The notes below the pieces were generated by a model that did no database searches, was not told where the DNA came from, and saw nothing but the letters and a program-made list of their open reading frames with translations. Positions 8,062 through 55,700 of a stretch of DNA of 64,000 nt are shown here, piece by piece (position 1 is the first letter of the stretch; the number at the start of each line of letters is the position of its first letter). The DNA comes from Polytrichum commune (Eukaryota; Streptophyta; Polytrichopsida; Polytrichales; Polytrichaceae): contig OX485806.1 in assembly GCA_950295325.1 (NCBI GenBank), forward strand, positions 49,595,169-49,659,168. The letters are read 5' to 3'. The position numbers were made by a program, and so were the translations under genes.

Positions 8062-9146
8062 TCATAGATTTGGGATATTAAGACATATAATATATTTGAG
8101 ATTGTTGACAATATAATTTCGGGCATCTTCAAGTTTTTTGATCCATACATTGTACATGTCCTTGAACACTTGTTCCACAATGGAAAAAAAAACTCCAATT
8201 TTGGACATGAACTTGGGAATGAGGCCTTCGGGCAAGGTGAAGTTTTTCATATTGAACAATACCGTTTTGGCCCACCTCATACTCCACTCGCGTCGTCCGG
8301 CATTGACTTGCACGTCATAGCATTTTTGGGGTTTTTTCCACCAACAACTTGGTCATGTCCAAGATTTGTTTATGCTCCTTGGCCAAGTCCTCACCATTTT
8401 GGTTGAACTCTAGTGTTGAATGTGCCCCCTCAAGAGTTAGGTTAGTAGGTTGGAGCGCATCCACTCTATAAGCCACCATGAAATACAAACCCTTGGTCGC
8501 CAAGTTTGTGCCTACATTACAACTAAACTCCGCTCGACCCACATAGTCCGCCCCTACCAAGTTCCTCAAATATTGCTTCAAGACTCCATTCACATGTTTT
8601 GTTTTCCCATCCCTTTGGGAATGTAAGGCCGTGCTAAACCTTAGTTTCATTCCGACCTCCCTAGAAAAGTGCCTCCAAAATGCACTTGTGAACTTTGGAT
8701 CGCGATCTGACACAATCACTTTTGGCAACCCGTGGTGCCTCAACCATCCTTTGAAAAAAAAGCTATGCGGTCTCCAACGCGGTCGCGGTTCCCACAATCG
8801 GCACCATGTGTGCCAACTTGGCAAATATCTCTGCCATCAACAAGATGGTATCATACCCATGTGACTCCGGCAAACTTGTGATCAAGTCCATGCACATACT
8901 ATGCCATGGCCCTAGAGGGATAAGAAATGATTGCAAGAAGCCACCTTGCTTTTGGTAAGAGGCTCGGTTCACTTGGCACTTCATCCAAGCCTTCACAAAG
9001 TGGGCAATATCCTCTTTTATGCACCACCAATGATACCTCCTTGACACCTTTCTATGGCAGTTTTTTTTCCCTCTATGGCTGGCAATGTGACTATCATATT
9101 CCTCCTTCAAAACCAATAGCCTCAACTTGCCTTGTGGTACATACAC
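8062..9146 (-). pseudogene. Integrase of gypsy-1 (degenerate)
   Basis: The N-terminal part (9,146-8,763) contains a zinc-binding-like region (SHRGKKNCHRKVSRRYHW..CIKEDIAHFVKAWMKCQVN) and the first catalytic aspartate in the block SMCMDLITSLPE. A second frame (8,824-8,315) carries the second aspartate in LPKVIVSDRDPKFTSAFW and then the block HSQRDGKTKHVNGVLKQYL, where the family has a glutamate after GKT/GQT. Here that position is Lys (TKHVN), so the third acid appears lost. The tail (8,313-8,062) has FTLPEGLIPKFMSKIGVFFSIVE, matching the GPF/I module downstream of plant integrases. A frameshift separates the two integrase halves. Not functional. Confidence 0.8.
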
Positions 9147-9348
9147 CAGAATTGCATATACTTGAACAATCCGTCCACCAACTTAACCTCTTCAAGCACC
9201 TTGCTTTTGCGAAGCTCACCTAGAAGTTTTTGTGCTTCCGGGTAGTTAGTGTACCCCTTTCTTGTCTTGCATCACAAGTTTCCTTCAGCGGCAGATATTA
9301 GCCACAAGGTTTGGATGATTCTCATTGCTTGGAACTCTTCATGTCTAC

Positions 9349-11270: not shown

Positions 11271-11391
11271 AATCTTGGTTGTACCATTCATTTTGGTGAT
11301 ACATTTGCACACATAGGCCTTAAGAGACCCCGGGTGCCTTATTTACACCAAGGTCATTCCAACATCATCACATTCTAAACATTTTGGATGC

Positions 11392-12543
11392 TAACAAGCA
11401 ACCACTCCATCTTCATATACGCTTCAAGTTGATGCCAATGGACTCCTCACTTGCCCCGTTTGGGCAAGTATTGAGTAGGTTATGCCTGTTCAAACCTTGG
11501 CAGTCCCGGGAGCCACTCCCATGTCACTACTTTACCAGGGCTGTCGCAACCCTTGCTAGCTCCCTTAACAATCTTTCCAAATTTTGTTTCTAGCAAAGGT
11601 TACGAGCGCTAACCCTTCGCATTCTGCCATGCTAATGGTTAGCTCCTCCTACCCCGGACCTTATAGTTCATAGGAGGGAACCAACCTTCCTACTTTACTT
11701 TCGGGATTCACCCCTTAATCGGTAACCCATTTCTTCCATGTGGACTTCCATCCATGGAAGTCCAATCCTATGTTGATCATCGCGTTGCCGGAGCAACACT
11801 ACAACAACCCAAAGCGTACTAGGCAACTATGGCCTCACATTGGGCCAATGCCCATGGAGGCTGTGCCATTCGGCCTCGGGTGGGTGAGGCCACACCACCT
11901 CACCCATATAAGCTTCTAGGACTCTACGCGGGGCCCCTACCCCACCATCAAGAAACCTCTTCTCTCTCTACCAAGAGTTGGGGCCGGGACAACGCCCCAT
12001 TCAAATTGCCATAACTCCTAGCTCACACCTCCGATTCAGGTGTTCTTGAGCATTCTAGAATCAACACGCCATGAGCTACGCATAGCTCATGGCCTTACCC
12101 TCATGCCTCCTAGTCTCCGTGGGTGGGAGGCGTTCCCAACGCCCGGGGCCCTCGCCCACACTAGGATCACTTGGGCCCTCTCACCAACGGCGCCACAAGT
12201 CCCGGGTGTCACTCCGGGGTCCCCCTTATGCCCATGGTGATTTGGGCACTCCTCATGGAGAGGTGCGCAACAAGGGCGTTGTCCCGGGAGAGCGCCCCAC
12301 TCAAATTGCCATAACTCCTAGCTCACACCTCCGATTGAGCTGTTCTTGAGCATTATGAAATCTGCACGCCATAAGCAACACATAGCTCATGGCCTTAACC
12401 TTGTGCCTCCTAGTCTCCGTGGGTGGGAAGCGTTTCCAACGCCGGGGCCCTCACCCACACTAGGATCAGTTGGGCCCTCTCACTCCGGGGTCCCCCTTGT
12501 GTCCATGGTGTTTCAGGCACTCCTTATGGAGAGGTGTGCGATA
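11392..12543 (+). mobile_element. E-family element, 3' half (E1a), with E1b inserted
   Basis: Starts mid-element with GATGCTAACAAGCAACCACT, runs to AGGGC (11,537-11,541), is interrupted by E1b, resumes at 12,273 (AGGGCGTTGTCCCGGGAGAG) and ends near GGTGTGCGATA at 12,543. Its order of blocks matches the full-length E2 copy at 17.86-25.87 kb. Its own 5' half is missing here, but a matching 5' half lies inverted at 12,640-13,145, so the element has probably been rearranged. Non-coding. Confidence 0.65.
11542..12272 (+). mobile_element. E-family LTR-like element E1b nested in E1a
   Basis: A 731-bp element from TGTCGCAACCCTTGCTAGC to GGTGCGCAACA flanked by exact AGGGC repeats (11,537-11,541 and 12,273-12,277). 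The host sequence across the joined site (TTTACCAGGGCGTTGTCCCGGG) matches the equivalent part of E2, which confirms both boundaries. Relative to E2 it lacks a middle section between TTGGGGCC and the CGCCCCA block. TG..CA ends and 5-bp duplication point to LTR-type integration (solo LTR or non-autonomous). It was inserted into another member of its own family. Confidence 0.8.
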
Positions 12544-12639
12544 TGGTTAGTAAGAGAGGGAGAATAGATGTGCCAAACTAGGTTGGCGCATGGAATTCAT
12601 GAACCCATGTCTCTAAAGAGCAAAGTGGAAAGATGGATT

Positions 12640-13145
12640 GGTCGCTTGTTAGCATCAAACATCATACAAGGAATTTATGATGGTTTGAAGCTGTTGGGGG
12701 CTTCAAGGTCCAACGGCTAAGTTAAAATATCTACTTGGCCCCAACTCTTGGTAGAAAGACAAAAAGTTTCTTGACGGTGGGGTAGGGGCCTCTCCTAGAG
12801 TCCTAGAGGCTTATATGGGTGAAGTGGTGTGGCCTTACCCACCCGAGGCCAAACGACACGGCCTTTATGGGCTTTGGCCCATTGTGAGGGCATAGTTGCT
12901 TAATATGGTTCGGGTTGTTGTAGTGTTGCTCCGGCAATGCGATGATCAACATAAGATTAGACTTCCATGAATGGAAGTCAAAATGTAAGAATTGGTTACC
13001 GATTAAGGGGTGACTTCCAAAAGCAAAGTAGGAGGGTTGGTTCCCCTCTTATGAATTATAAGGTCCCGGGTAGAAGGAGCTAACCATTAGCATGGGGGAA
13101 TGTGAAGGATTAGCGCTTGTGATCCTTCCTAGAAATAAAAATGAT
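12640..13145 (-). mobile_element. E-family element, inverted 5' half (E1c)
   Basis: The reverse complement follows the 5' half of E1b and E2 block by block: GCTAATGGTTAG, CCCGGGACCTTATAATTCAT, the Ser/Phe-like filler, ACAACAACCCGAACC, the ACCCATATAAGCCTC phrase and GTTGGGGCC, ending with GATGCTAACAAGC. It forms, with E1b, an inverted repeat with arms of about 400 bp. It may be the displaced 5' half of E1a. The extreme TGTCGC terminus is not readable here. Confidence 0.65.
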
Positions 13146-13229
13146 TAAAATGGTGAAGGAGAATTAGCAAGGGGTGAAATAGTTCCACACGACTGCATTT
13201 TTTTATGTAGGGACTTTTGACGATATGGA

Positions 13230-14215
13230 AAAGGAAACACGAGGGGAAATCCGGGACCGGTTTCCTGTTGAAGAGAGACCATTTCTTTGCAAGATTGGAA
13301 AATTTGGTTTAGGACGCAGATGCGGAAGAAGCGTTAAAGCAATATTAATTTTAATGATTGGTATACGTTTGAGCTTCTGCCCCAAGATTTAGAGCATGAG
13401 GTGCTTCAGATCTACGAGGAATGGAGGAATGCTCATTGGATGGAGCTTCGCCTGGTGGAGCAGTACTGGGAGATGTGGGTGGAATTGATTTCCGCATTAA
13501 AGGAGGGCACAACTTCCAGTTCATTGGCCACTCCTATGGTGAAGATGGAGCAAGTGGAGGTTGTCTTTGTAAAGGATGTGGAAGGGACATTTTCTAGTGA
13601 ACCTAAGGAAATGTTTACGTTTCCACATCCACGAGTACGTCGAGTCCAGTCTTTCCACTATCCCGTTACGCTTAAGCTACCCAGGCGGCATTAGCTTCTT
13701 TAAGTGTTTTTCCAGATTTTGATCCTCAGCAGGAATTCAAAATCCATTTGGAGGAGGAATATGAAGGTTTCGGTTGGGATCAAATGCAATGGATCTAAGA
13801 TTTCAGGCGGGAGAAGGATGGCACACCTCATACCATGTACACAACGTTGGCGAGATTTGCCAAGGAGTCTAGAGGTGCTCTCGTGGAGGATCAATTGGTG
13901 AAGGTCTTTTTGTCAAAGATTGACAAGCGTCTTATTAATTTAGTGTTGCATAGGATCATCACGGATTATGGTGGGCGGGCGGCACTTGCATAGGCATTTG
14001 CCGTTGTGGACCAAGATGATCATGCCTTGAGTCAACACAATGGCAGTAACTTGATGTCCTTGCTAGTGAATTCTAGCAAATCCCGGAAGACTTCGATCAT
14101 GACTACAGAATTGGCAGAGGCAGAGGGCAACAAGACCTTATATTGTTGGTCTTGTGGGCAGTCGGGCCACGCTAAGAAGGATTGTCCTTCGAAGAAAAAC
14201 AGGCCCACACCGTGA
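13230..14215 (+). pseudogene. gag of gypsy-2 with CCHC zinc knuckle
   Basis: Frames at 13,360-13,690 (LLPQDLEHEVLQIYEEW, then a Trp/Glu-rich helix) and 13,830-14,215 form a capsid-like reading with frameshifts near 13,690-13,830 and a TAG near 13,992. The segment TLARFAKESRGALVEDQLV followed by KVFLSKIDKRL resembles the gag capsid region of plant gypsy elements. The zinc knuckle is intact at 14,145-14,186: C-W-S-C-G-Q-S-G-H-A-K-K-D-C, spacing CX2CX4HX4C, which binds RNA in the family. After it comes a basic tail and the stop at 14,213. Confidence 0.8.
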
Positions 14216-15184
14216 ATCATCCAAAGCGGAAGCTAGTTATTCTCGCTAACATTTCAATGAAGGACGCCGAAAAACATTCTTCGAAGTAGTTGAAATGCTC
14301 CCATTGTGGACGGAACAATCTCGCGGTGGAAAATTGCTTCACTCTCTTTCCAAAAAATACCTTTATTCCAAATGGGAAAAAACGTTGGAGACAATATTTG
14401 GCGCCTTAGAGGAGAGGTTCAAGAATTTGGCGTCATCTGGCCAAATCTTAGAATCACCAATTCCACCCGGAGCTGAGGCTAGTTTGTCGACTTCCGATTA
14501 CTATATGTTCAAGGCTTGGGAGGGAAGTGGTGAGTTCGGCAGTTGTAACACGTGCTCAATCCGTGTTACGAGCCACACCTTCTATCACAGAAGAACCTGT
14601 GGAGTCCTCACAAGCTAGGGATAATGGTCCAGCGGATCATATTGGTTAGGCACGTTTGCCATTGCTTTTTGGATTGGCAGATGCTATCCAATCTATCGGT
14701 GGCCGACATTCAACCATGGAGGCTTCAAATCCGGCGACCGACAGGGTGCATACATTGGCATCCAAGGTGTTGCACACACCTTTATTTATAACAATGGAGT
14801 GGTCATCACCCGACATCCAACCAGCTAAGGTTTTCCACCTAGCATGTAGGATTTGGAAGGCAAGGCATCCTTGTCTTTTTTCATTGTGGCTCAAACCATC
14901 GTATACCTCCCTACCACTGAGGATCTTGAGGAAACGGCCAAACAAATAAGGCTTGAGGCAAAGGCCATTGCATCTTTTGACGCACACACCTCAGATGACA
15001 AGGGGCCGACTACATTTTACGACTCATCCGAATCCGTGGGGACAGCTTATCTGTCAAATGTAGCTGCTAAACCTGCTCGTGAGCGTAGTTGCATTTGACT
15101 GGGCGTCATGCGTATGGTGAATTATACCGGCATTTTGGTGGTCAATTGGGCTAGGGCAATGTTATTTGGGTTGCACCCCAGTGT
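14216..15184 (+). pseudogene. gag-protease connecting region of gypsy-2
   Basis: Holds broken frames without clear homology. The best are 14,295-14,618 (a helix-like stretch with TIFGALEERFKNLASSGQ) and 14,853-15,098 (EDLEETAKQIRLEAKAIASF). They are probably parts of the polyprotein linker, since they keep the strand and lie between gag and protease. Function unknown. Confidence 0.4.
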
Positions 15185-15489
15185 ATGATAATGGACTCGA
15201 GGGCACAACAAATTATGATTTGCAAAAGGTTTGCCCATGAATTACAATTGACGACCGAGGACTTGGCTCCTCGCCCATTAACCATCTTCACCTTTATTGG
15301 CCATGTGGAGCGGGCCATTAATCACACTTGGGAGCCACTACAACTTAGCTTCTGCGTGAAGCCTAGAGATCCACCCGCACTTTTTCTTCTCAGGTTTGCC
15401 GTGACAGATGCAACCAACTACGCTATTTTAGTTGGTCAGTAAGCATTCTACCCCCTTGCTTTTGGTTTGCACAACTGGACTGAGAAAGC
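15185..15489 (+). pseudogene. Aspartic protease of gypsy-2
   Basis: The reading MIMDSRAQQIMICKRFAHEL resembles the retropepsin active-site region, where the family reads D-S/T-G-A; here the glycine codon has become AGG, giving DSRA (Asp at 15,194-15,196). It continues through LTIFTFIGHVERA and FAVTDATNYAILVGQ, a pattern typical of the flap and the C-terminal ILG/VG box. A TAA interrupts at 15,440. It would have cleaved the gag-pol polyprotein; this copy is inactive. Confidence 0.65.
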
Positions 15490-15864
15490 TTGGATCTGAT
15501 TTGGTTGGTTGTTGGAGACGGATATAAGGAACTTATTCATGTGGCAGTCACGGTGGCCGCAACTATGATACTCTTATCCATGGTTTTTGGATGTGATGCT
15601 ATTGTGGATACATTGCCATATGCTTTCGTATTATTGGAGGAGTCATTGGCATTCATGGGGACTGTTGAGAATCAACAAAAAATGGCACCTAAGGGTGCAT
15701 TGGTGCATCATCCCAAGGATCCTCTTCCTCCTTGGCGCGATTCTACTGACCTATTCCGAAGATGCAAGGATTTTTTCCTCTCTCTTGGTTCTATAACACT
15801 AGTCGTCCGTGATACCTCATCAATGTTAGCACATACTATTTCATGACGTCCGCCAAAAGAGGGG
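15490..15864 (+). pseudogene. Protease-methyltransferase linker, unknown
   Basis: A frame of 118 codons plus a few more, continuous with the methyltransferase except for a TGA at 15,844. It reads a hydrophobic stretch (HVAVTVAATMILLSMVFGCD) and then a Pro/Arg-rich one (VHHPKDPLPPWRDSTDLFRR). I recognise no domain. It may be the N-terminal extension of the methyltransferase or a remodelled protease tail. The unbroken 357-bp frame in an otherwise ruined element is noteworthy. Confidence 0.45.
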
Positions 15865-16829
15865 ACTACTTTGGTGGAGTTGTTTGGGGGCATCAAAACA
15901 AGAGTGGCAGCCATGTTGGAGGCTGCTCTCATAATTTGACAATATGTTTATGTGGATAACAGTCAGGTTTCCACCCATGTGGCCCGTCACCATCTCCATC
16001 AGTTGATGGTATTGTATTCACAATAGTTGGATCCAACTGCAATTCGTGGGTGTTTTGCACGTCTCCCTCGTGATGTTACACTTATCAATGAGGCAGACTT
16101 ACATGGATTGGGTCCCGTGGATCTGGTCATCACAAGATGGCCATGCTAGGGCCACTCACATGTTGGAGCAGGCCGATAGTTGAAAGATCTTAGATCTAGT
16201 TCTTTTGGGACCTCATCCAGCTCATGTAGTGGTGGTATGCCCACCAACCTTTCCCCCAATGCTACATATTAAAAAATGTACCTTTGTTGGGAGATTCTCG
16301 GGACAAGGTGTTGGAAGGCATGCATTATGTTTGTCAACACCTTGGTGATCTCATTTTTGTGGATGTCGTGGTCCTTGTTTCTTATTCCCACAAATCTCGA
16401 TGGTTTGGACCAACCTCGCATCTCCATCCACTTTAGCTGCAACATTTTTTGCAGTGCTTCCACCTTTTGATCAAAAGGTGGATGACATCTTGGATCCACA
16501 CCGGACCTCTTTGCTGGTTATTCGAGATGATATACCCCAATTGGCATTGGTCAACAAAGTGGGGGCACCACGGAATGCCTTCCCCACCTTTATGACTTTC
16601 CCACAGTCATTCGTATTATGCGATTGAGGGCCTGGCATGGTGTGGGATGATCACACACAAACCCACACTAAGCCATTGGCTGACGTATGGAAGCGTGCCA
16701 TGGGATTCCGCATGGGCACCACAACAACTCCTGGCCTTTTTGAGGGCCAACGACGCTTCGTGGTGGGCCAAGCCATGGATCCTAATACCATGGTGTGGAG
16801 TATTGGTTTATGCCTTGCATTGCAATGAT
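15865..16829 (+). pseudogene. C5-cytosine DNA methyltransferase domain inside gypsy-2
   Basis: About 320 codons that match C5-cytosine methyltransferase motifs in order. Motif I is TLVELFGGIKTRVAAMLEAA (15,868; S-adenosylmethionine site). Motif II is YVYVDNSQ. Motif IV is DLVITRWPC followed by a stop where Q is expected and then GHSHVGAG (Pro-Cys at 16,141-16,146; TAG at 16,147). Motif VI is YILKNVPLLGDSRDKV (16,263), with Lys replacing the catalytic Glu of ENV. Motif VIII is SYSHKSRW. The C-terminal part has KRAMGFRMGTTTTPGL and VVGQAMDPNTMVWSIGLCLA (16,690-16,825), fitting motifs IX-X. Stops at 15,934, 16,024, 16,147 and 16,178, and a frameshift near 16,200, kill it. The domain sits between protease and RT, so an intact ancestor would have released a methyltransferase from the polyprotein. 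I think the identification is robust from motif order, but it has not been tested by profile search. Confidence 0.82.
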
Positions 16830-17862
16830 ATCATGGTGACCATTTCTTGTCTTTGGAGGCAGAGGACTCAGGTCAAGGGGCACAACGGTCCACATCCATG
16901 AAGGAGAAAATTGAGGCCATGGTTAGAAAGGCCAAACGAATCTCTCGATTTGAGCAGCAAGTGATTGATGAGCTTCAAGCTCAACAGGTTTATACTGCTT
17001 TGGCTTCTTCGACTCTGTCGGAGGCTTCATCATCACATATTGATGGTGATGAAGAGAGGTCAGATTTTATTGGTGGCATTGAGGTTGGGGGCATGGTTAA
17101 TGCCCCCTCCTTTCAGTAGCAGTTAGAATTTCTAATAGCATCAGGTGGTTTGCACCTTTGGTGGAGAGAGAGACCACAAAGTTTAATGATTGGCCATTAG
17201 AATTAGGCCCTCATCTCACTGGTGTTGAGGCACGGAAGGTACGAGTGTTCATTCGCTCGTACCAGAGGTGTTTTGCTTTAGCCTTCAAGATCTTGAAGGC
17301 TATAAAGGAAAACCCATCCACATTCAACTTGAGGACAACCATCCCATTTTTTGGAGACCTTACAGGCTTAGTGTTCCCAAGAGGATTGGTGTCCAAGCTT
17401 GTTGCCAAGAGCTCTTGGCAACAAAGCTTATTGAACTCTCGAACGGGAAATATGCTTGTACTACAGTTATACAATCAAAGAAAGATATCTTTGGCAATTG
17501 GACGGAAAAACAGATGTGCGGGGATTACCGTCCAGTTAACCGCAAGACCGAGTCGGATCGGTATCCCATGGCCAATCCCGAAGGAGTTGTTCGATGCCAT
17601 CGGATTTTCTCAACTCTTTAGCACCTTGGACTTGAGATCCGGCTATCACCAGCTCCCATTACTTGCGGGAGATCGGGTGAAAACCGCATTATGGAGAGTT
17701 GATCAAGTTGGCAAGGATCAACTTTAACATTGGAATATTTTTCCATTTGGTCTGAAGAATATACCTGCTGAGTTTCAAAGAGTGATGGACCAAGTCCTTT
17801 CTAGCTTGTCATTTCCTCAATGTTACATTGATAACGTGATCATCTTAAGCAAAACACCACAG
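16830..17862 (+). pseudogene. Reverse transcriptase of gypsy-2, N-terminal and palm part
   Basis: Begins with a charged linker (KEKIEAMVRKAKRISRFEQQ, 16,898 on) and then the RT N-terminal part: GKPIHIQLEDNHPIFWRPYR (17,307), VIQSKKDIFGNWTEKQMCGD followed by YRPVNRKTESDRYPM (17,470-17,570), FSTLDLRSGYHQLPL (17,608-17,660) with the catalytic aspartate in TLDL, FPFGLKNIPAEFQRVMDQVL (17,736), and CYIDNVIILSKTPQ (17,822-17,862). The YxDD box reads YIDN, so the second Asp is lost. Frames alternate. The coding region stops at 17,862 because E2 is inserted there and resumes at 25,869. Confidence 0.85.
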
Positions 17863-18726
17863 GTCGCAACCCTTGCTAACCCCCCTAACAATCTTGCCAA
17901 TTTTCAATTCTAGCAAAGGTTATGGGCACTAACCCTTCGCATTCCGCCATGCTAATGGTTAGTTTCTTCTACCCCGGACCTTGTAATTCATAGGAGGGGA
18001 ACCAACCTCCTACTTTGCTTTCAGAACTCACCTTTTAATCGGTAACAAAAATTTAAAGGTGGACTTCCATCCATGAAAATCCAATTTTATGTTGATCATC
18101 GCATTGCGGGAGCAACAATACAACAACCCGAACCATACTAGGCAACTATGGCCTCACAATGGGCCAAAGCCCATGGAGGTCGTGCCGTTCAGCCTCGGGT
18201 GGGTGAGGCCACACCACCTCACCCATATAAGCCTATAGGACTCTACGCGGGGCCCCTATCCCACTGTCAAGAAACCTCTTGTCTCTCTACTAAGAGTTGG
18301 GGCCAAGTAGACATTTTCCCTTAGCTGTTGGGCCTAGAAGCCCCCAACAGCTTTAGACCATCATAACTTCCTTGTATGATGTTTGATGCTAACAAGCAAC
18401 CACTCTATCTTCATCTACGCTTCACTGTAATGCCGATGAACTCCTCACTTGCCCCATTTGGGCAAGTATTGAGGAAGTTATGCTTGTTCGAACCTTGGCA
18501 GTCCCGGGAATCACTCCCAGGCACTACTGTCCCATGGCGCTGTCCGGGAGAGCGCCCCACTCAAATTGCCATAACTCCTAGCTCACACCTCCGATTGAGG
18601 TGTTCTTGACCATTCTAGAACCACCACACCATGAGCTCCGCATAGCTCATGGCCTTACCCTCATGCCTCCTAGTCTCCGTGAGTGGGAGGCGTTCCCAAC
18701 GCCTTGTGCATCCTAGTCTCCGTGGG

Positions 18727-20546
18727 TGTGAGCCCAAAGATGGGCCCCCATGTGTTCTTAATCGTAGAATTCATTGAGAATGGATATTTGGCTTTTTATT
18801 GGTTATTCTGAAAACATAAATAGAGTGAAGTTAGAATAGATCATGATTTTAAAATCTAGGCTTAGATGTTGGCTTTAGATTCAGGAATTGGGTGAAGAAT
18901 TAACTTGGGTTTGGCTTAGATAAGTGTGAGAGTGGGGTCGTTGTGACCGAATTAGGCTAGTCGGTGTTCGCATTGAGGGGGGGTGTTGTACCCCTAGGAA
19001 ATCCCGGAATCGGGATTAGGTGGGCTGCAATTGGAAGTTGTTTAGTAGTTCCAGGGAGGTATGTGTGAGCTCGGGGACGAGGAGGTTGGCGGCCACCACC
19101 AGGAGGAGGCAACCGAAGTGAGGAGAACTCGCTTTCGAAGGGAGCTTGGAAGGTTATGGAGACTGGGAACAGAATAACTGGGTAACAGAATGTGACTTAA
19201 AGGAAGCAACATGGTTCAGTGGCCGAGAGGAATCGCCACTGACGCAGAATGTGAAGGAATCAGTGGCTGAGACAAGCGGCATTCCGATGCAACGCTGCTG
19301 GTCACGCTCCGGGTGGCTGAAATGAGATTTGGGAACAAAAGTTGAGCATTGAGGGAAGAGGGAAACGGCGAGAGGGGTAGCGAGCTGCCTGGGTGAGCGG
19401 CAGGTCAGACTCGGTTTCACTTGGAATATTTCCATATGCGCAAAGATTTGCACTGAACCAAGAGCAGGAGGTCTGCCGAGGTGGAGGCAGCTTTGCTCGA
19501 ATGCCATGAGGGAGGCAACTTCGAGGTATGTAATGAGGTCGAAACGTGGAAGGACCAAGCATCCAGGGATTCGTTAAAATCTCATGGCACTCTGTTTTGT
19601 GCTCAAGTGGGCGACTCGGTCTAAGAATGTTGAGCCTAAATTCAATGAGGGGGTGCTCCATGAGACAATGTGGCCCAGGCTTCACACGGGGTTTGGGCTT
19701 GAATGCTTGGATTAGCTGGGCGAGTGTGTGATTTAGTTGCAGGAGGTGTGGCGAGACAACAGGTTGCTGCCGCTTCGGAATCGGCGGAGTTGGGAATTAC
19801 AGGCAAGGTACATAGAGTTTTTGATGCAGCAAGCTGCAACCTATTCGCCTAAACGGAGATCTAGAGGAGGCAGGGCGAGGGAATTCACAATAACTCTTGG
19901 ATCACTAGGATTCAAGGTCAAGTCCGCTATGATGGCCGAATCAGAGGCAATATGGTGCAGAATTCTACTCGCCAAAAAGAAAAACTTGTTGGTTGCAGCT
20001 GTCTGAGGCAAGGCCAGTGGAGTAGCTGGGGGTTGGGCTTGTGAAGCCTGATGCACATCAAAAGAAGAGCACTAGAGGGAAAAAACTCGAAAGTTAGAAA
20101 CCCACTGTCTTAGACTTGGCCACTGGTATCCATGGGAAGCTGGATGTAATTTTGCTTTCAAGCTATAGTAAAAGAGGCTAGAATGTTAGGTAGGCCTTAG
20201 TTGGGTTGTGTTGAATTAATATTTAGTGAAAACCACCAGGGGTGACCTTGATGCAGTTACCAACATAATCATTAGATAAATTATTGTGTGGGGTTTAGGG
20301 TTTAAGTATGACATGTGGAAGATAGAATGAGAGGGTAGGCATTATTAGTTCTATAGGAAGGGGATCATTTTTTAATGCTTGTAACCTGGTTCACTGGAGT
20401 AAATTTATGTGTGTGACATCTTCATTGTGGAGCACTAAGCACTTAGGGGTGAACCTGGCTACTACTAGGGGGTTAGGCAATGGCATGTGAGCCATAAGCT
20501 CTCATCCGGACCACGACGCATAAGGGTGGGGGGTTTATGGCTGACA
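18727..20546 (-). mobile_element. LTR-like element D, TGTCAG family, nested in E2
   Basis: Runs from TGTGAGCCCAAAGATGGGCC to GGTTTATGGCTGACA and is flanked by exact GTGGG repeats (18,722-18,726 and 20,547-20,551). It splits the E block GTCTCCGTGGG / TGGGAGGCGTTCCC, which is intact in E1b, so both ends are certain. In minus orientation it begins with the module TGTCAGCCATAAACCCCCAC and its 60-bp end TTATGGCTCACA. Length 1,820 bp. It shares with element A internal phrases such as CTCGGTGTTC and ATTAGGCTAG. No coding potential. Confidence 0.85.
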
Positions 20547-20613
20547 GTGGGTGGGAGGCGTTCCCAACGCCCGGGGCCCTCACCCACACTAGGATCACTT
20601 GGGCCCTCTCATC

Positions 20614-23600
20614 TATGAGCCACAATCACCCCCACCCTTCAATTGCGTCCTAGTCCGGGTGGGAGATCATGTGCCACATTCAAGCATACCATTCACATGT
20701 GCAAGCATAATCAAGGAAATGGGAGAACTGGTGTGTATAACACCTTTTCTTATTAAGTCATTCAAGCATTCACAAATGCTTGATCACGATACAATGTCAA
20801 ATACAATTGAACCAATCAAATGCTTTACTACTCCTAGCCTAATGACGCCATTCCTCCACAACTGAGGATTCTTCCCACAACCTACTTCTATCTTCCATTA
20901 ACCACGATCTTATCTCAATTCGGCTTCCTCGGCACCTTGTTGATGTTGGTTCCACGCCACCGCAATACCACAACTAAGCCTGCAACCCATAACCGTTGAG
21001 TGTGATGAAACCTCGGACCGAGCTCCAGATTCCACTGCACCGCGATGAGAGGGCTGGCATTTCGGAAGAGCAATCCTAAGCGCCTGCTAGCGGGCCGTGC
21101 ATAGTGAGCTTCTCCCCTTGTACTAGTATGCTCAGGAGGCCTCTCCTTGCTTCATTTCGCGACAACTGTAGCTGATGACCTGTGTGCCGACCTCTCCACC
21201 CTTCCAAGATACCCACCAGGCACCTTCCCTGACCAAGCAAGTCTTTACCGAACAACCCATAGACTAACATCACAATTCATGCCGCACCCAAACAAAAGAA
21301 ACACTCCACCTTACCATCATTACTCCCTTGCTAGTTCTAGCAACATTCCCCGCGGTGTTGCTCCGGTTGTCAACCTCTAGCTGCTCATTGTGAGCAACTC
21401 ACTTTTTGCCTGACTGCCCTCCTTGATGCTGAGAAGAATTCATGGGGCACTTAGTGAAGAAGCAATGACCTACTAACTTTCAGCAACAAAACCCCTTTTG
21501 AGCAAATATGGAGAAGTTCACGCCCTTGTCTACAACTATCGTTTTTTTGAGAGCCTAAGAGCTCCACGGTGCTGAGAACGAATTGAAGTCTGTCGGTGAC
21601 TACACAAATGATGTTTGGCCTACTTCTGATGAGATTTGGTGTCTACACCTTTTCCTTGTAATTCATTCCCTGGCACTACCACGTTTCCCTGCATTTCTGA
21701 ATTCCATTCTAAAGTTTTCCTCAGCAAATACTCACTCCCCGAGCTTGCTGCTAGATAATACTTTCTCCACGATACCCTATAACCCCAACCAGAGTTCCCG
21801 TGCGGAGCGACAAAGAGAGAATTCCTACTACGACTGTGTATGTGACTCCCCGGTCACTACCAGCTTCCGAATCTTGTGGAAACTCATCAAACCTGCGTAC
21901 TCACCTGGTCCCCACAATGAACTCTTGTGCATGTCAATCATTAGCCACTAATTTGGAAGACTCCCTACCCACCGATCACCATTGCCGAGGACCTCACGCT
22001 ACTCCTTCGTGCTAATCTCTGCCCCTTGAGAAAAAAAAACCCCCTCCCTTCCTGCAGATCACACACATCCACGTTCGGAAGCTGGAGATTCTAGGAGGGG
22101 CTACGCAACTGTTAGACGTTCCCTTATCACTTGGAAGTGAGACCCAGGAAGTGGGGGCAAAGTGTCCATCATGTCTCGCCTCTTAACCTATCTCGGTAAC
22201 CCCATGACCTCGAATTACACCCACTAACTACTCCTCACCAGCCACGCAATCATCCACAGTGATCCCACAAGATGTGCTTCTTCATCGACAACTTGTTAGA
22301 GTGTCCACACAGGTGATGTTAAGTGACCGAAAGCCCTCCGTCCCTCGTCAGGGCTCAACCAACCAACACCCCGAAAGTGCGCTCATCTTCTCCTCACAAA
22401 GTTGATCCTACGTTCTTCATTCCCCAACTCACTTATACAACTAAACTCAACTTCCACAAGGACATGCACCACTTGTAAGCTATCGATTGTAACCGCACGC
22501 ACCCTACAGATAGCATCCGCTTCCACTGTCGCACGCCTTTCCTAAGACCAGCTACACCCCCTTCCACATCCCTTTAACCCAGAATTCCCACGGGAAGGTG
22601 TAACTTAGTGTTGAGTCACAACATTAAAGAGAAGAAGACAAATTCGAGTAAGGTAACGGCACTTAAATCAACAAGCATGCAAACTAGCAAGAAGGATTCA
22701 CAGAGAAGGAGAAGAACAACACCGAAGAAGAATGCCGAAGAAGCTCTCGGCCATGGAGCTCGGCCACGGCCTTAGGGCCCCTTTCCCACGGCATTATGCA
22801 CCTTACGCGCGGCAATAGGTCCTCCTATACCACGGCAATGGGTGCCCAGCGGGTTTAAGGAGGAATACTTAGGATTTAAGTAGTAGGCTACTATACTAGT
22901 ATTAAGAAATTAGTATTAGGCATTATGAAGTATATTAGGGCATATTGGAAATAGGATATTGAGATGAAAGGACCATTAAAGAGACAAGTATTTAGGAAGG
23001 GAAGATCAATGACTATATGAAGAGACATATTAACGGAGTATATAGGAATGTAGTATTTTTGAAGAGACATAATTATGTTTTAGAATTGTATTGAGGATGA
23101 ATGTCTATCCGAAGAAGCACGATTATGGAATAGGTAGAATGTAGGATTTTGAGGAAGCACGATTATGGAATATATGGGAATTTTAGATATTAAACTCAAG
23201 GAGACATTATGAAGACATTAAGGGGAATATAGGAATATGGTACATTCTACTAGCATGATCATTAATCAATCAACATAAAGATTTGATTGATCTCCAAAAA
23301 AAGAATTTAGAATGTAGCCACAACAAGGAGTTAGGGAAATCTTGGAATTATGAACATTAAGATGATGAAACGGTTGTAACCGTTTAGGATAGGAATCATC
23401 TACATATATCAAAGATAGTAAGTATCTAGGAAAGTGGAAGTTAACAACCACTCTTAGTATAGATTTTGGATAGGAAGAAAATACTATATAAGGGAAGCAA
23501 ATTAGGAGACCTATACCTCATTTCTACACAACGAAGTTATCACAAATTTGAGTGTCAAAAACACTTGAGTTTCTTTGTATCTCTCCTCTCGGAGCTCTTT

Positions 23601-25776
23601 TGCAATACAATATCTTTTCCACAAATGTGTGTGACCTTTCTCTCTCTCTTTCTCAAGTCGAACTACGAGTTGTCAATTGGTACTTGTGACTCAAGAGATT
23701 ATTAAACGAGAGAAGAGTAGGTGCTTTGAGAAAGAACTCAAAGTATTAGTGCGAGGGTGAGAACAAAGCGCTTAAGAAGAGTTGGAATATCAATGGAACT
23801 TTGAGAGTAGTTGTTGTGAGTAGTAACGACAATTTGACTTGAACGTCGGAATTACGATTGACTCTCTAAAGTGGAACTTATCTTTGAACTCCTCAAAAGG
23901 GAATTATAAATATACATGTGATTGAATGATTGAAGAATTATATGCATGTTTAAAGCAAAACCACTTAACGATTACAAACTCCTTCAAAAGAGGAGGAGCT
24001 TATTATTGAAAACTACATAATTGACTTATAAGTATTATACCTATTATACTACATATTGATTGTTGAACTTGTGATTGACAAGAATGATGAAGACATTAAT
24101 TCACATCAAAGTTTGAATACATATGAATGAAATAATATTAATATAAGATAATCTACTTACTACAATTGTTATTGAACTTCTTTTAAGATACTTTGTGAGT
24201 TGTTGGATGTCATTACAATTTGGAGGATTATTTATTAAAGAGAAGATCTCTCTCTCTCTTTTGAGCAAAACTCAAGAGAGATAGGTTTACTTCTCGTCAT
24301 CAAGAAACACTTTGTAGTAAAAGTGCTTTCTCTCTTAAGATACTTTGTGAGTTGTTGGATGTCATTAACAATCGGAGAAGAGTTATCCTCTTTTGAGCAA
24401 ACCTCAAAAGAGTTATAATTAATCTTATCATTAAAACACTTTGAAGATCAACGTGACATTGCAAAACAATTAATGTTGTGTTCATGAATTACAACTACTA
24501 TATATGTCAAGTTACAATATTATAAGTAGTAACACTTGAGCTTAAAAAGGAAGACTTAAGAATATTGTATCTTCTTCCTTATTATAAGATTACTATCATT
24601 TATGTGATTGATGTTATGAACTACAAAACTTAAGGATTCAAACAACATATTGAAACTATATTAATATATGTTATTGTTACACCTCTTGAAGCTTTCTTAA
24701 ATCTAAAGGTTCTTATTGTCATTGATGCCTTACATTGAGAATAAGAACTAAGATAATGAGATTGTGTTCACTCCGATAAATATATTCATATCATAAGGAG
24801 AAGAGAGGAGTTGTTAATTTGAGGACCGAACATATTAATGAGGCACGGTAGTTCTCAAGCGAATATAAATTTTACGTGATGAGCATCGTGAGTCTTCTTA
24901 GCTAATTTTGCAAAGGAACGACCCACGGCGTCCATCACTTAGCTCAAGAGACGCACGCAGATCATGTGTTGAGCAACATTGTGCAGGTGAGTGTGTGCAT
25001 CAGTTGCGGAGGAATACATGACACAATCCCGCTCTAGACCACCGACGAGAGAACAGTACTATGAACGCCGACTAGTCCTTGCATTTGGGCCGAAGCCTCA
25101 GTCCTCGGTGCTTCCTTTCCACGGTCCTTTCGCTCCCGTCCTCCGGCGAGTTGCGCCACACCAGCCCAGCGATCCCTCCATGCGATTTTGACTTAGATCA
25201 AACTCCTTGAGCCTCCCAGCAGCCGCACCAAATCTGAATCCCGTTCCGTAGAGGAGCCTTGGGTTGTCACCACTTGGTCCCCCGGCATCTCAACACCCAA
25301 GACTAGGCTCTGTGATTCCTCACAGTACATCAAGACCTTTTTGCCCTCTTCCCGACATCCAACACTCCTCCCTACATGCATAATCCTTAACATGGTTGCT
25401 TAGGAGCACCGCTGGACTGGAAAGATTTCCCACTTCGGCAGGGCTCCACCCTCTTGCTACCTCTCTCCCTCTCCCACTATGCATAATGAGGCTTCAACCT
25501 CCTACCTCCTGAGACCCCTCCAAGCTCCTTTTTTTTTCTCGCATTGCCCGGCATTTTTCGGGCCGCCCGGAAAGAAAAACGGGTTTGCATTCCTTCCTTG
25601 CCCTTTCCTTCCAAGACCCCACTTGCCCACACCCTTCAAGTGTATTTAATTATTTTTTTAATTTAATTTTCCTTACCACTTCCCAAAGGTAAGGTTGACC
25701 TTATAAAAATTGTTTTCCATCTCTTAACTTTACGGTGAAGTTAACAACCATGTGAGCACAACTTTTTGGGCTCACA
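20614..25776 (+). mobile_element. LTR-like element F, TGTCAG family, nested in E2 and holding G
   Basis: Runs from TATGAGCCACAATCACCCCC to TTTTTGGGCTCACA, flanked by TCATC (20,609-20,613) and TCACC (25,777-25,781). The unmutated E sequence at this point reads CTCACCAACGG, so the left copy has one change. The terminus starts TA instead of TG, a common C-to-T decay. Total 5,163 bp, or about 2.83 kb without element G. Non-coding. The left part (20.6-22.6 kb) is C-rich with no persistent frame; the right part (24.9-25.8 kb) is similar. Confidence 0.8.
22609..24937. mobile_element. LTR-like element G, nested in F
   Basis: A 2,329-bp AT-rich insertion from TGTTGAGTCACAACATT to CACGGCGTCCATCA, flanked by exact CTTAG repeats (22,604-22,608 and 24,938-24,942). 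The sharp composition change at both ends supports the boundaries. It is not similar in sequence to the TGTCAG or E families. No coding frame; it contains several imperfect internal repeats (for example TTTTGAGCAAAxCTCAAxAGAG twice near 24,260 and 24,393, and AAGATACTTTGTGAGTTGTT near 24,185 and 24,336). Probably a solo LTR of a long-LTR retrotransposon, orientation unknown. Confidence 0.75.
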
Positions 25777-25868
25777 TCACCAACGGGGCCACAAGTCCCG
25801 GGTGTCACTCCGGGGTCCTCCTTGTGCCCATGGTGTTTTGCACACTCCTCATGGAGAGGTGCGCGACA

Positions 25869-26620
25869 CCACAGGAGCATGTGGGGCCTCTGCAAGCCGT
25901 TTTTAAACGGTTGCCGCGGTGGAAATTACGCTTGCACCATAGGAAGTGCAAGTTTCTCCATGACCGACTAGCATATCTAGGTCATATGATTATTCCAAGA
26001 GGTTTTGGGGTGCAGCAAACTAAGATGGATGTTTTGCAGAAGATCCCGCACCGGTCGATGTGCCGAGACTTCGTGCTTTCTTGGGCTTGGCAAATTACTA
26101 CTGTCGATTTGTCAAGAATTTTAGCTTGATTGCCAAGCCTTTTACCATTCTCACGAGCAAGGACCAACCTTGGACTTGGGGTCGTAAGCAGTTGCAGGCA
26201 TTTGAGACATTGAAGCAGAAACTAGGTGTGGCTCCAATGCTTCGACGTCCGAATGTCTCCAATTCCTTTCAGTTGTATACAGACTGGGGTTCATTGGGTT
26301 TGGGAGCAAATCTCACTCAGGAGGATGACTCTGGCCAAGAGTATGCTGTTGCTTATGCTTTGTGAAGCAATAACACTGTGGAGGCCAATTATTTGTCCTA
26401 TGAGGTGTGGGCTATTGCCCATTTCCGGCCATATCTCTATAATCAGCATTTTATTTTGATTATTGACCATTAGCCTTTACGGTGGCTCTTGGAGTCGGAT
26501 AAGTTTATTGGCAAGCTCGCCATGTGGGCTTTATTGCTCCAAGAGTATGATTTGAGGTGATACACCGTGTCGGAATTACCAACTTGGATGCAGATAGATT
26601 GTCACGCAATCCAAGTCCTT
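25869..26620 (+). pseudogene. RT C-terminus and RNase H of gypsy-2
   Basis: Resumes in frame after E2 with EHVGPLQAVFKRL, then LRLHHRKCKFLHDRLAYLGH, LRAFLGLANYYCRFVKNFS and KDQPWTWGRKQLQAFETLKQ, the connection region. RNase H begins at FQLYTDWGSLGLGANLTQ (26,267; first catalytic Asp in YTD) and continues EANYLSYEVWAIAHFRPYLY and LIIDH with a stop, then PLRWLLESDK. Stops at 26,363 and 26,472 and a frameshift near 26,070 and 26,555 break it. The reading ends with TNLDADRLSRNPSP, the family's conserved DALSR-like box. Confidence 0.85.
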
Positions 26621-27744
26621 TGGATGAGGACTTGACCAGGGCCAGGTGGCATGGGAATTGTGATCGAGAGGCGGTTCCAGGCTGGCATGCAACTGCTTAC
26701 CTCACTTTGTTTTTTGGCGTTGTTGTTGAGGTTCTGATATAGGGCTCGGATGATGAGACTAATCGACCTTTGCGGATATATGGGACGATCTTCCCGTATT
26801 GCATAAGCTTCAACAAGGAATATTTCCCTTGTCTATCTCAGCGATGGAAATGGATCGGATTGGACATCGAATAATAAGATTTTATTGAAAGAACGGGTTG
26901 TTATTTCAATTGTGGTCGGATGGGACAAGGCGTATTGTCCCTAGACCGGATCAGAGGGCCTTTTTGGTACGACAAGTGCATGAGGAACTTGGCCATTTTG
27001 GCATACGCAAGACACATTTAATATTGCGTGGCCAATATTTGTGGGTAGGCATGTATTAACATGTAGCTGCTTATGTCGGTAGGTGTGGAGTTTGTGACCG
27101 GCTCAGGTCTAGCTTCAACACCTTGTCACCTCAATTACAGCCCTTACCTATCATGGGATTGGGCTACCTCTGGTCATTGGACTTTGCAGGACCGTTGGTT
27201 GTTACACCACGTGGAGCAAAATATGTATTAGTGATGGTGGAGCATTTTAGCAAGTGAATTGAGCTTGTCGCTCTATCCCAAAACTCTGCAGAGTTGGCTG
27301 CAGCAGCCTTTTTAGATCGTATGTTGGCACATTTTGGAGCACCTGCTAAGGTATTGACGGACTAAGGGAGGGAGTTCCTCGGTGCTTTTGAGGAGTTGTG
27401 CACTAAGGCCCTTATAGATCACCGTACCACCTCACGGAATCATCCGGAGGTGGATGGCTTGGATGAACGGGTTGTTCAAACAACCAAGCGTGGCTGGAGG
27501 AAGTATGGATTACTTCGGGGGAGCCACCAGGATTGAGACCTTATGTTGCCTTGAATTGCTATGGGCTACCAATTTAGTAGGCAAACCTCATTGGCGTCCT
27601 ACAACCCATATCAGTTGTTGTATGGCCGTGAGCCTATACTTTTGAATTTTAATCGGAAAAAAGTTAGGTCCTGTTGTGGACTTGGATGACCCAAACATTT
27701 GGGCAGAGTGTTTGCAGAGGCGGGCTCAATGTTTCTAAAGAGCC
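26621..27744 (+). pseudogene. Integrase of gypsy-2
   Basis: After a charged linker, the HHCC zinc-binding domain reads VHEELGHFGIRKTH (26,979) and CGVCDR (27,088). The first catalytic Asp is in LWSLDFAGPLVV (27,170), the second in KVLTD followed by a stop and GREFLGAFEEL (27,352), and the third acid region reads TSRNHPEVDGLDERVVQTTK (27,430), with the expected Glu. Downstream NLVGKPHWRPTT marks the C-terminal part. Stops at 27,057, 27,256 and 27,363 and frameshifts show decay. All three acids of the DDE triad appear conserved by sense. Confidence 0.8.
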
Positions 27745-28305
27745 ATGCTTATGGCTATGGAAAATTTGTCCATTGCTCAACATCATGACATATTGCATAA
27801 TGCACGCATTCGCAGTGGTACTTACCAACCTCAATTGCAAAGATTCCGGCAAAGGAATTATGTTTATCTCCAATGTAAAGCGCCCACAACATTGGATGTC
27901 AAGCCAGGGCGTACTATCCTTTGGGTAAAGGAGGTGTTGCCGAGTGGTTTGTTGTTGTTGGAAGGCAAGGATGGCCGGGAATGTTGTGAGGATTCCAAAA
28001 ACTGTGCCCTGTGTCATCTACTTATTGAAGGTATAGTTCATCCTGAGCTGGCCATCGTGCCAGAGGGCCTTCCATATTTTGTATGTGGGGAGAAGAAAGA
28101 AGCAGCTACTATACTCTTGTGTGATCAGTGTCAACGTGGTTGGCACATGGCATGCTTGAGGCCACCTTTGACTTCCATCTGGATAGTGGAATTGTCTTCG
28201 CTGTCGAGGATCTTTGGTACCTGGTGCTTCTACGAGTTGTATTCAATGATCCCATGTGGCTTTCACTATGTTATGTATGCTCAAATGGAAAATGATGGGT
28301 TATAG
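27745..28305 (+). pseudogene. Integrase C-terminal tail with PHD finger
   Basis: A 186-codon frame open from 27,745. The first 75 residues are the integrase tail (ARIRSGTYQPQLQRFRQRNY, then RTILWVKEVLPSGLLLLEG, a GPY/F-like module). Residues 108-140 read a PHD finger: Y111-F-V-C114, LLC126-D-Q-C129-Q-R-G-W-H134-M-A-C137-L-R-P-P-L. The first Cys of the C4HC3 pattern is Tyr here. The last Cys pair is kept in the +1 frame at about 28,177-28,205 as PSG, a stop, and WNCLRCRG, so a frameshift separates it. PHD fingers bind histone H3 tails. Many gypsy elements (chromoviruses) use a chromodomain at this position, so I infer that this PHD finger is an alternative targeting module. Confidence 0.75.
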
Positions 28306-28538
28306 TTTAGAGACGCGATCAAACATGAGACGGCAAATTTAATTCTTTAGAATCTGATGGCCAAACATCGTAGGCGATTAAGGATGGGGATTACAGTGCA
28401 CCCAACCTACAATTCTTTGGAATGACATTCACCACACTCATTGGTTGCAGAGCAATTCTTCATCATCCATGCCCTTTGGATTGGGATTGGTTCTAGCTGC
28501 TTGGCGGGATTCCATAGTCAACTAAGGGGGGCATGTGG

Positions 28539-29079
28539 AGGTGTGTTGTTTATATGTGTTTTTGCCATGTTTTAGTTATATTTATTAGTGGTGGCTGGTA
28601 TTTGAGCTGCAATGACACACAATCACTATTTACATGATAGTTGTCACGGTATGCAGCATTGGTGGCCGCACCTTATCTGTGGGATTTCATCCATTTATAT
28701 TTGGATGGATGAATCTTAGAAGTTGGAGAGATGCTCTTAACTGAGGAGCCTCTTCCTTGGTTTGGCATTTCTGCTAAGTCAAGCTTTGTGAGTGAGTGTG
28801 TGAAAAGAGCTTCTGTGAGGTGAAGATTGCATTTTTTTGCAATAAATCTTGAGTTTTTCTCCCCTTACTTACACTTTTGGATTCTCCCATGATGGAGTGA
28901 GAGATAACTTGACTCATTGTGTGCATTTGAATAGAAATTTAAAGCTCTTACAAGGGTTTGACTTTCTTCCTTCTCTGTAGAGGTGTGTTGTTTATGTGTG
29001 TTTTTGCCATGTTATAGTTATATTTATTAGTAGCGGTTGGTACTCGAGCTGTAGTGACACACGATCGCTATTTACACGA
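28539..29079 (+). repeat. 3' LTR of gypsy-2 followed by a partial second copy
   Basis: The segment AGGTGTGTTGTTTATATGTG occurs at 28,539 and again as AGGTGTGTTGTTTATGTGTG at 28,981; the two copies match over about 98 bp to ..ATTTACAxGA. The first is preceded by a purine-rich tract (AAGGGGGGCATGTGGAGG, 28,524-28,541) where second-strand priming would occur, so LTR start is about 28,542. The first unit is 442 bp long. The second copy breaks off at 29,079. This looks like a tandem LTR-LTR junction or a truncated duplicate. Confidence 0.6.
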
Positions 29080-55478: not shown

Positions 55479-55700
55479 TGTCGCACACCACTCTGTGAGG
55501 AGTGCCCGCAACACCATGAGCCCAAAAGGGACCCCGGAGTGACGCCCAAGACTTGTGACACCAAACGTGAAAGGGCCCAAGTGATCCTAGGGTGGGTGAG
55601 GGCCCCAGGCGTTGAGAACGCCTCCCACCCACGGAGACTAGGAGTCACGAGGATAAGGCCATGAGCAATGAGTAGTTTATGACGTCCGAATTCTAGGATG
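55479..55700 (-). mobile_element. E-family element fragment (E3, 3' end)
   Basis: The reverse complement of the E 3' end: starts TGTCGCACACCACTCTGTGAG (55,479), then CACCATGAGCCC, ACCCCGGAGTGACGCCC, the AGTGATCCTAGGGTGGGTGA block and GGCGTTGAGAACGCCTCCCA, ending near GAATTCTAGGATG. The E 3' terminus is intact; the 5' part is truncated about 220 bp in. It lies 23 bp from the 5' LTR of gypsy-3. Confidence 0.75.

Follow-up and report, generated by a model that had tools for sequence, protein, structure and literature searches.

In this study, we describe a decayed Ty3/gypsy retrotransposon in a 64,000-nucleotide stretch of the Polytrichum commune genome (contig OX485806.1 of assembly GCA_950295325.1, positions 49,595,169 to 49,659,168; hereafter the window), which occupies about 13.2–29.08 kb of the window, is interrupted by an 8.0-kb insertion and carries a cytosine methyltransferase domain resembling DNMT3. 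Comparison with open-frame copies from the same genome shows a retrotransposon family with young copies in which this domain ends the gag-protease frame and is kept under purifying selection. The window copy is a member of subfamily 2, one of the two subfamilies among the 20 copies that we fetched (77% identity in open reading frame 1, ORF1, and 85% in ORF2), and its 5' part is absent upstream of about 13.2 kb. Its parts, in window coordinates, are the following.

13204–14122, +: gag region (tblastn with the gag of an open-frame copy, E = 6.6e-100; the nucleotide match starts at 13207)
14123–14316, +: CCHC zinc knuckle region (tblastn; Pfam zf-CCHC at 1.3e-5 on the window piece)
15158–15535, +: aspartic protease (tblastn; Asp_protease_2 at 0.0012 and 0.0026, below cut-off, in two open-frame copies)
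15862–16819, +: DNMT3-like cytosine methyltransferase domain, broken (tblastn with an open-frame DNMT, E = 4e-126)
16835–17110, +: linker from the DNMT to the frame-ending stop (tblastn)
17117–17119, +: UAG closing the gag-protease-DNMT frame, followed by CAGTTA, a form of CARYYA (context 17114–17126)
17403–17862, +: reverse transcriptase (RT), first part (tblastn; Pfam RVT_1 at 4e-11 on the window piece)
17863–25865, no strand assigned: insertion of another element (8.0 kb), which splits the RT (9-bp target duplication ACACCACAG)
25866–26003, +: RT, second part (tblastn)
26177–26548, +: RNase H (tblastn)
26904–27506, +: DDE integrase (tblastn; two open-frame copies match H2C2 and rve)
27507–28062, +: integrase C-terminal region (tblastn)
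28063–28246, +: PHD finger, end of Pol (tblastn; profile matches in open-frame copies)
28534–28637, +: repeat B1, directly 3' of a G-rich polypurine tract (nucleotide comparison with the copies)
28642–28975, +: repeat A2 (its joint with B1 is decayed relative to other copies)
28976–29081, +: repeat B2 (element end ...CACGACA at about 29081)

The original prediction, made from the window alone, had read the motifs of a C5 cytosine methyltransferase in order from the broken sequence, and they lie just where it placed them: LVELFGG (15871–15891), YVYVDN (15943–15960), ITRWPC (16129–16146), ILKNVP (16266–16283), HKSRW (16389–16403), and GQAMDPNTMVW (16766–16798). They are flanked on the same strand by the protease upstream (15158–15535) and the RT downstream (17403–17862 and 25866–26003), as had also been proposed. 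The motifs are spread over three reading frames with stops, and the window copy is therefore dead; the two lesions singled out beforehand, a stop in place of the glutamine after the cysteine of motif IV and a lysine in place of the glutamate of ENV in motif VI, both depart from motifs that are invariant in 17 domains recovered from its relatives. Counted only in columns where seven relatives agree, the window copy shows an excess of C-to-T changes at CG (103/406, 25%) and CHG (81/348, 23%) sites compared with CHH sites (203/1714, 12%). This pattern fits a long residence in plant heterochromatin methylated at CG and CHG and is uninformative on the element's own enzyme.

Searched directly, the broken window sequence matches profiles only weakly. 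Pfam gave no match on pieces of the broken DNMT, the joined read with its lesions marked X reached E = 0.26 against PF00145 (below cut-off), and its best match in the PDB was DNMT3B at E = 0.5. By tblastn the broken read found phage C5 methyltransferases at E = 0.4–7; among the matches listed (20 of 117 records), 18 were annotated as methyltransferase or methylase, one was a hypothetical protein with a sister so annotated, and one was unannotated. Nothing was confirmed for this read in the viral and prokaryote collections, nor for the DNA pattern or the element's RT in viral contigs, and an open-frame DNMT found in the viral contigs only phage C5 methyltransferases (six loci per search). Weak direct matches are what motifs arisen by chance in junk DNA would give; that explanation is already refuted by the match at E = 4e-126 to a copy in the same genome, and we give it practically no weight. 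The C5 profile search put forward in the original prediction fails on the window sequence and succeeds in two open-frame copies, which pass PF00145 at 5.7e-12 and 8.8e-12 (NCBIfam dcm at 2.9e-12 and 2.1e-11, under that model's cut-off). The DNMT of one copy matched DNMT3A (1.4e-10), DNMT3B (4.3e-9) and then DNMT3C in the PDB, followed among lower matches by 4onj (1.3e-7), the bacterial-type cytosine methyltransferase 3g7u (1.8e-6), DRM2 (3e-5), and M.HhaI (9.5e-5), with the tRNA enzyme DNMT2 at E = 0.59. WPCQGHS (motif IV), FENVP (motif VI) and HRPRW (motif VIII) are invariant in the domains recovered from 17 of the 20 copies; the domains were located by a motif I pattern, so that motif I is not counted as independent, and this pattern missed the domain in L009, L012, and L014. 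It is nearly certain that the domain is a C5 methyltransferase in a gypsy element. Its closer assignment to DNMT3 is by similarity over residues 4–190 and not by a tree, and several observations count against it or against an intact enzyme in every copy: the phmmer alignment with DNMT3A reaches only those residues of the 347-residue query, motif IV reads PCQ in the copies against the PCN of DNMT3A in that alignment, the final third of the window DNMT by itself retrieved no DNMT from the PDB but one unrelated chain at E = 2, and one of the 17 recovered domains (L011) has a stop.

The genome searched was the window's own, with 407.8 Mb and 64 contigs; the seven large ones, C1–C7, are 42–78 Mb long. 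It holds at least 123 scored PF00145 matches out of 353 candidates (worst E = 9.8e-9), in open frames of 110 to 1386 codons; these matches were not each confirmed as retrotransposon copies, and a small number could be host genes. The 20 copies were fetched for a long DNMT frame, which biases the sample toward intactness. In a survey that started from the RT, 65 of 124 matches among those listed (3065 candidates) have a listed DNMT upstream on the same strand, none has it on the wrong side and one has it on the opposite strand. The offset between DNMT and RT is 1.25–5.0 kb, mostly about 1.29, 1.34 or 2.0 kb, in start coordinates that on the minus strand include match lengths; as both lists give lower bounds, an RT match without a listed DNMT carries little information. 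Seven RT copies with an ORF2 of 973–1048 codons and no listed DNMT match were picked. In six the DNMT stands at the expected place, and in the seventh it is displaced by an inserted repeat of about 1 kb near the end of the domain; this copy, at C5:27994327, had been a candidate for a DNMT-less element and was rejected as such. The original prediction would have fallen had the domain been missing between protease and RT in other family members; it is present in 7/7 of these copies. Matches to radial spoke genes also occur in the genome (PF04712, best E = 2.6e-38), and the same search was positive in none of 14 prokaryote controls. Such genes are expected where sperm are flagellate, which makes a non-seed plant probable, and the seven large contigs would agree with the chromosome number of hair-cap mosses.

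Intact relatives, which the original prediction had proposed to seek, do exist: 10 of the 20 fetched copies have two full-length open frames, with no fewer than 1356 codons in ORF1 and 1045 in ORF2. By the domains of two scanned copies, ORF1 encodes gag, protease, and DNMT in up to 1386 or 1372 codons (a CCHC knuckle is seen, below cut-off, in one of the two), and ORF2, of 1047 or 1048 codons, encodes RT, RNase H, the integrase zinc domain, the rve core, and the PHD finger. The proposal of capture by a gypsy element is thereby upheld, with the correction that the DNMT does not simply sit in Pol but, in open-frame copies, stands at the end of the gag-protease frame. ORF1 and ORF2 share one frame and are separated by a single UAG, which is followed by CARYYA in 20/20 copies (CAATCA, CAATTA, and once CAACCA); of the 1990 TAG triplets on the element strand of those 20 loci, no other has this context. 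Elsewhere, the context is CAGTTA in the window copy and CAATCA in the outside relative L054, described below. UAG-CARYYA is the readthrough context of tobamoviruses. In-frame UAG readthrough is stated to yield the Gag-Pol protein in murine leukaemia virus (PMC5009743). Readthrough in the moss element would, judging from this context, produce Pol in a minority of products and the DNMT mainly together with Gag, since the DNMT precedes the leaky-type UAG.

Pfam profiles found in order in two copies, RVT_1 (4.7e-30 and 5.1e-30), RT_RNaseH (8.3e-39 and 3.6e-37), Integrase_H2C2 (1.1e-17 and 5e-17) and rve (1.1e-13 and 1.8e-14), give the order RT-RNase H-integrase with an rve core that defines Ty3/gypsy elements. 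No chromodomain was matched in ORF2 of these two copies and no tyrosine recombinase in either copy. The integrase is followed by a PHD finger (Pfam, 2e-10 and 1.4e-10), whose top matches in the PDB include CHD4 (5.2e-18), PHF12, KMT2D, lid/KDM5, ATXR5, DPF3, and UHRF1. Such PHD fingers mostly read histone H3 tails, several of them with unmodified K4. By this resemblance, the finger would probably steer the integrase to nucleosomes with unmodified H3K4. One of 13 PHD finger sequences (L028) lacks one conserved residue. No tRNA primer site was recognised by eye after A1, a point against the life cycle proposed below; the window holds no tRNA and no match to an Rfam family at gathering score.

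The ends of the element are unusual. It does not have an identical direct long terminal repeat (LTR) at both ends but carries A at the 5' end and B-A-B or B at the 3' end, in the order A1-body-B1-A2-B2 in 15 of 18 copies and A-body-B in the other three (L013, L016, and L024). The integrated unit starts with TGTCACG and ends with CACGACA, that is, TG...CA, and is flanked by a perfect 4-bp duplication in all 18 copies with both ends readable (end pairs are lacking for L009 and L012) and by a 5-bp one in none; among mismatched pairs of flanks, 4/306 agree at 4 bases. Where the joint pattern was matched, with 0–12 bases allowed between the halves, B1 and A2 meet as CACGACA-GC-TGTCACG in 16/16 copies, and the same joint is found in L061, a locus from another organism. 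By eye, there is a G-rich polypurine tract ahead of B1, and in both subfamilies the motif ACTTG.CAA.AAT comes after A1, so that by the standard scheme the terminal repeat of the linear cDNA would be B-GC-A. It would appear that the integrase opens circular DNA at the B|GC|A joint, and the palindrome GACA-GC-TGTC would suit an integrase which, on both strands, removes the two bases that follow CA. The circle is opposed by the thought that the split repeats come from ordinary linear cDNA, with an LTR of A plus B and a transposed copy of B. The TG...CA ends and the short target duplication are typical of a linear LTR element, whereas the polypurine tract before B1 and the leader after A1, as located by eye, would by the standard scheme put the linear ends at the start of B and the end of A and not at the start of A and the end of B; we consider a linear origin unlikely, though it is the strongest of the competing explanations. 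Against the circle it must also be said that the invariance of the joint is that of 16 copies and L061, and that the A-body-B copies could equally come from post-insertion recombination of B1 with B2.

Other irregularities were seen in the repeats and leader. The 3' ends of L018 and L012 have tandem duplications of about 130–155 bp in the A2 region, and in several subfamily 1 copies (L009–L023) the leader before ORF1 contains tandem repeats in steps of about 144 bp, at about 620–1354. In L061, at about 2087–2700, what by eye seems to be an A repeat is followed by leader-like sequence and not by B2, a layout to be expected if A1 and A2 had been collapsed in the assembly or if the DNA were a circle with one repeat.

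The family is recent in part. In 8 of 14 measured copies there is no substitution between A1 and A2 (0–4 gap columns, some of which stem from the placement of borders) or between B1 and B2, and these copies are therefore young; the other six have 1–7 substitutions in A and 0–2 in B. The DNMT of the family is kept under purifying selection, with dN/dS of 0.11–0.14 in three pairs between subfamilies (dS saturated) and 0.17–0.24 in three pairs within subfamily 2; toward L054, pN is 0.18–0.23 and pS 0.72–0.75. The integrase tail with the PHD finger has dN/dS of 0.06–0.07 between subfamilies. Not all the data point this way. The RT has dN/dS of 0.03–0.07 in the same six pairs, so that the DNMT is less constrained than the RT; close pairs are uninformative or high for the DNMT (L017/L019 0.62 and L025/L027 1.75, from few changes); and within subfamily 2 the integrase tail and PHD finger give 0.63–1.29, also from few changes, where constraint is not visible. 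The faster evolution of the DNMT could mean that the domain is a passenger which hitch-hikes on the element after a single capture, with no working part in the life cycle, and the same could be said of one copy whose full-length ORF2 is open while its DNMT is interrupted near the end, and of the stop in the L011 domain. A passenger would hardly have kept motifs IV, VI and VIII in the 17 recovered domains and in the element of another organism while synonymous sites became saturated, nor be present in all seven RT-picked copies, and we find this reading improbable.

The young copies have a CpG observed/expected ratio of 0.67–0.76. As they show no strong CpG loss, there is no clear footprint of self-methylation, which tells against a DNA methylase acting on the element. 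It is in keeping with another proposal, that in the Gag particle the domain binds nucleic acid or modifies RNA, as is its place in one frame with Gag, ahead of the stop, with the Gag-like amounts that this would imply; RNA methylation was raised for a LINE type of element by de Mendoza 2018 (PMC5890265). The best matches of the domain are to the DNA enzymes DNMT3A and DNMT3B, in contrast to E = 0.59 for DNMT2, and binding alone would not require the catalytic PC and ENV motifs; a role of this kind seems to us improbable, if marginally less so than a mere passenger. We retain a DNA methyltransferase as the preferred identity.

Taken as a whole, we consider it highly probable that this is a gypsy family which acquired a DNMT3-like methyltransferase and maintains it by selection, with a life cycle that would comprise a Gag-Pol made through a leaky UAG, integration from circles and PHD targeting. 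The order of domains and repeats, the stop context, the ends with their target duplications, the youth of copies and the selection on the DNMT are observed; catalysis, readthrough, use of circles and targeting are predicted from them. In such a life cycle, ORF1 would give a gag-protease-DNMT polyprotein, to which occasional readthrough of the UAG would add RT, RNase H, the DDE integrase, and the PHD finger. The DNMT, present in Gag-like amounts, may methylate the element cDNA inside the particle or on exit. The cDNA with its terminal repeat B-GC-A would close into a circle, and the integrase would open this circle at its palindrome, the B|GC|A joint, to insert it with a 4-bp target duplication, a two-repeat circle leading to A-body-B-A-B and a one-repeat circle to A-body-B, while the PHD finger would guide it to nucleosomes with unmodified H3K4. 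The putative benefit of methylation may be that new cDNA is shielded from host sensing or that quiet, persistent insertions are prepared. More tentatively, and with slightly more doubt than belief, we propose the specific combination of integration from a circle via the GACA-GC-TGTC joint with a chromatin writer and reader, the Gag-side methyltransferase and the integrase PHD finger, split across two polyproteins. DNMT3 itself unites a writer with its own ADD reader, whereas in this element writer and reader are on separate polyproteins.

Searching the prokaryote collection with an alignment of the DNMTs of four copies, we found a single locus, L054, on contig CADCWO010000201.1 of a cyanobacterial metagenome-assembled genome (MAG), with 66% identity over residues 1–320 (E = 3e-145). 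It shares both frames with the family (ORF1 begins beyond the end of the contig) and has the same stop context, an RT stretch 88–89% identical to that of the family, PF00145 at 6.8e-12 and intact motifs IV, VI, and VIII. Its PHD finger, in a frame of 1047 codons, is the only PHD match in the 4.8-Mb MAG, and none of 14 control prokaryotes has one. The contig is probably eukaryotic DNA binned by mistake with the cyanobacterium, that is, contamination in a public MAG. When the DNMT of L054 is compared with that of one copy from either subfamily, the identities are 66% and 71%, against 64% between those two copies; a small tree that included phage enzymes did not resolve the branching among L054 and the two subfamilies.

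With regard to the rest of the window, the repeats at 11.4–13.2 and 17.9–18.7 kb were considered as LTRs of the gypsy element and rejected, being part of the inserted element and its kin. The end repeats of the 8.0-kb insertion have kin at 11381–13176 (partly inverted), 20547–20625, and 55479–55700, occur also near the DNMT of copy L065, and represent an abundant unnamed repeat family. A host gene for a Mediator subunit lies at 44743–51470 on the minus strand (Med14 domain at 50328–51470, E = 3.5e-32), and the open frames at 44743–49079 are by eye probably further exons of it, although the frame at 44743–45996 has no Pfam match; the CpG observed/expected ratio at 44–52 kb is 0.24–0.37, below the level around the gypsy element. 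Fragments of other gypsy elements are found at 8318–9182 on the minus strand (integrase-like by eye; the frame at 8318–8836 has no Pfam match) and at 58924–60004 on the plus strand (RT/RNase H).

The purpose of captured methyltransferases in algal and dinoflagellate retrotransposons is a question that the young open-frame copies described here make testable in a living plant. Their anatomy predicts that DNMT is supplied at Gag level by way of the leaky UAG, that extrachromosomal circles carry methylation, and that integration takes place at the circle joint. If the circle route is true, this would be a DDE integrase using circular DNA; integration of circular DNA was proposed long ago for retroviruses and then rejected there.

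Several known systems share single features with the Polytrichum family. Plant chromoviruses likewise carry a histone-reading module at the end of the integrase, which here is a PHD finger in place of the chromodomain. Orchid Ty3/gypsy elements have reportedly also gained an enzyme domain that acts on nucleic acid methylation, an N6-methyladenosine (m6A) RNA demethylase and not a C5 methyltransferase (PMC9289625), and REM1 of Chlamydomonas, cited in PMC2774666, is another unusual Ty3/gypsy element of the green lineage. The A-body-B-A-B topology is in common with DIRS/PAT elements, which are defined by a tyrosine recombinase and no target duplication, whereas the Polytrichum family has an rve integrase and a 4-bp duplication. 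SymbioDIRS-Dnmt3 of Symbiodinium (PMC5890265) likewise combines a Dnmt3 with A-coding-B-A-B repeats and differs in having a tyrosine recombinase in place of the DDE integrase. Among the literature titles listed in our searches, with subscription journals mostly outside them, we found no case of a DNMT in a land-plant element, no PHD finger in a gypsy integrase, no split repeats in gypsy elements, and no UAG readthrough in plant LTR elements.

The closest published kind is KnitGypsy-Dnmt3 of Klebsormidium nitens, for which a DNMT3-related domain in the Gypsy Pol ORF and DIRS-like repeats are reported, with key residues conserved, purifying selection and an acquisition in the K. nitens lineage (PMC5890265); the presence of DNMT3s in streptophyte and dinoflagellate retrotransposons is restated in a 2025 paper (PMC12344493). 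Both this kind and the Polytrichum family are gypsy elements that combine a DNMT3-like domain and the DIRS-like repeat order. They differ in host, Klebsormidium in one case and another plant, P. commune, in the other, and in that the DNMT of KnitGypsy-Dnmt3 is in the same ORF as the RT, as far as described, whereas the UAG separates them in 20/20 Polytrichum copies, although the two are still in one frame and would be joined if the UAG were read through. The words PHD, readthrough and circular are absent from the main text of PMC5890265, and the Klebsormidium copies may share the PHD finger, the leaky stop and the circle-type features. An independent capture into a different gypsy lineage, separate from the Klebsormidium event, would agree with the acquisition described in the K. 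nitens lineage (PMC5890265) and with a likeness that is one of description and not of sequence comparison; it is less easily squared with the same rare pairing of a DNMT3-like domain, a gypsy Pol and A-body-B-A-B repeats, or with a close relative in another organism (L054), and we hold it to be unlikely. On this comparison of descriptions, the rare combination of a DNMT3-like domain, a gypsy element and DIRS-like split repeats favours one shared lineage, and the layout common to the moss and the Klebsormidium element suggests that one capture has persisted across streptophytes.

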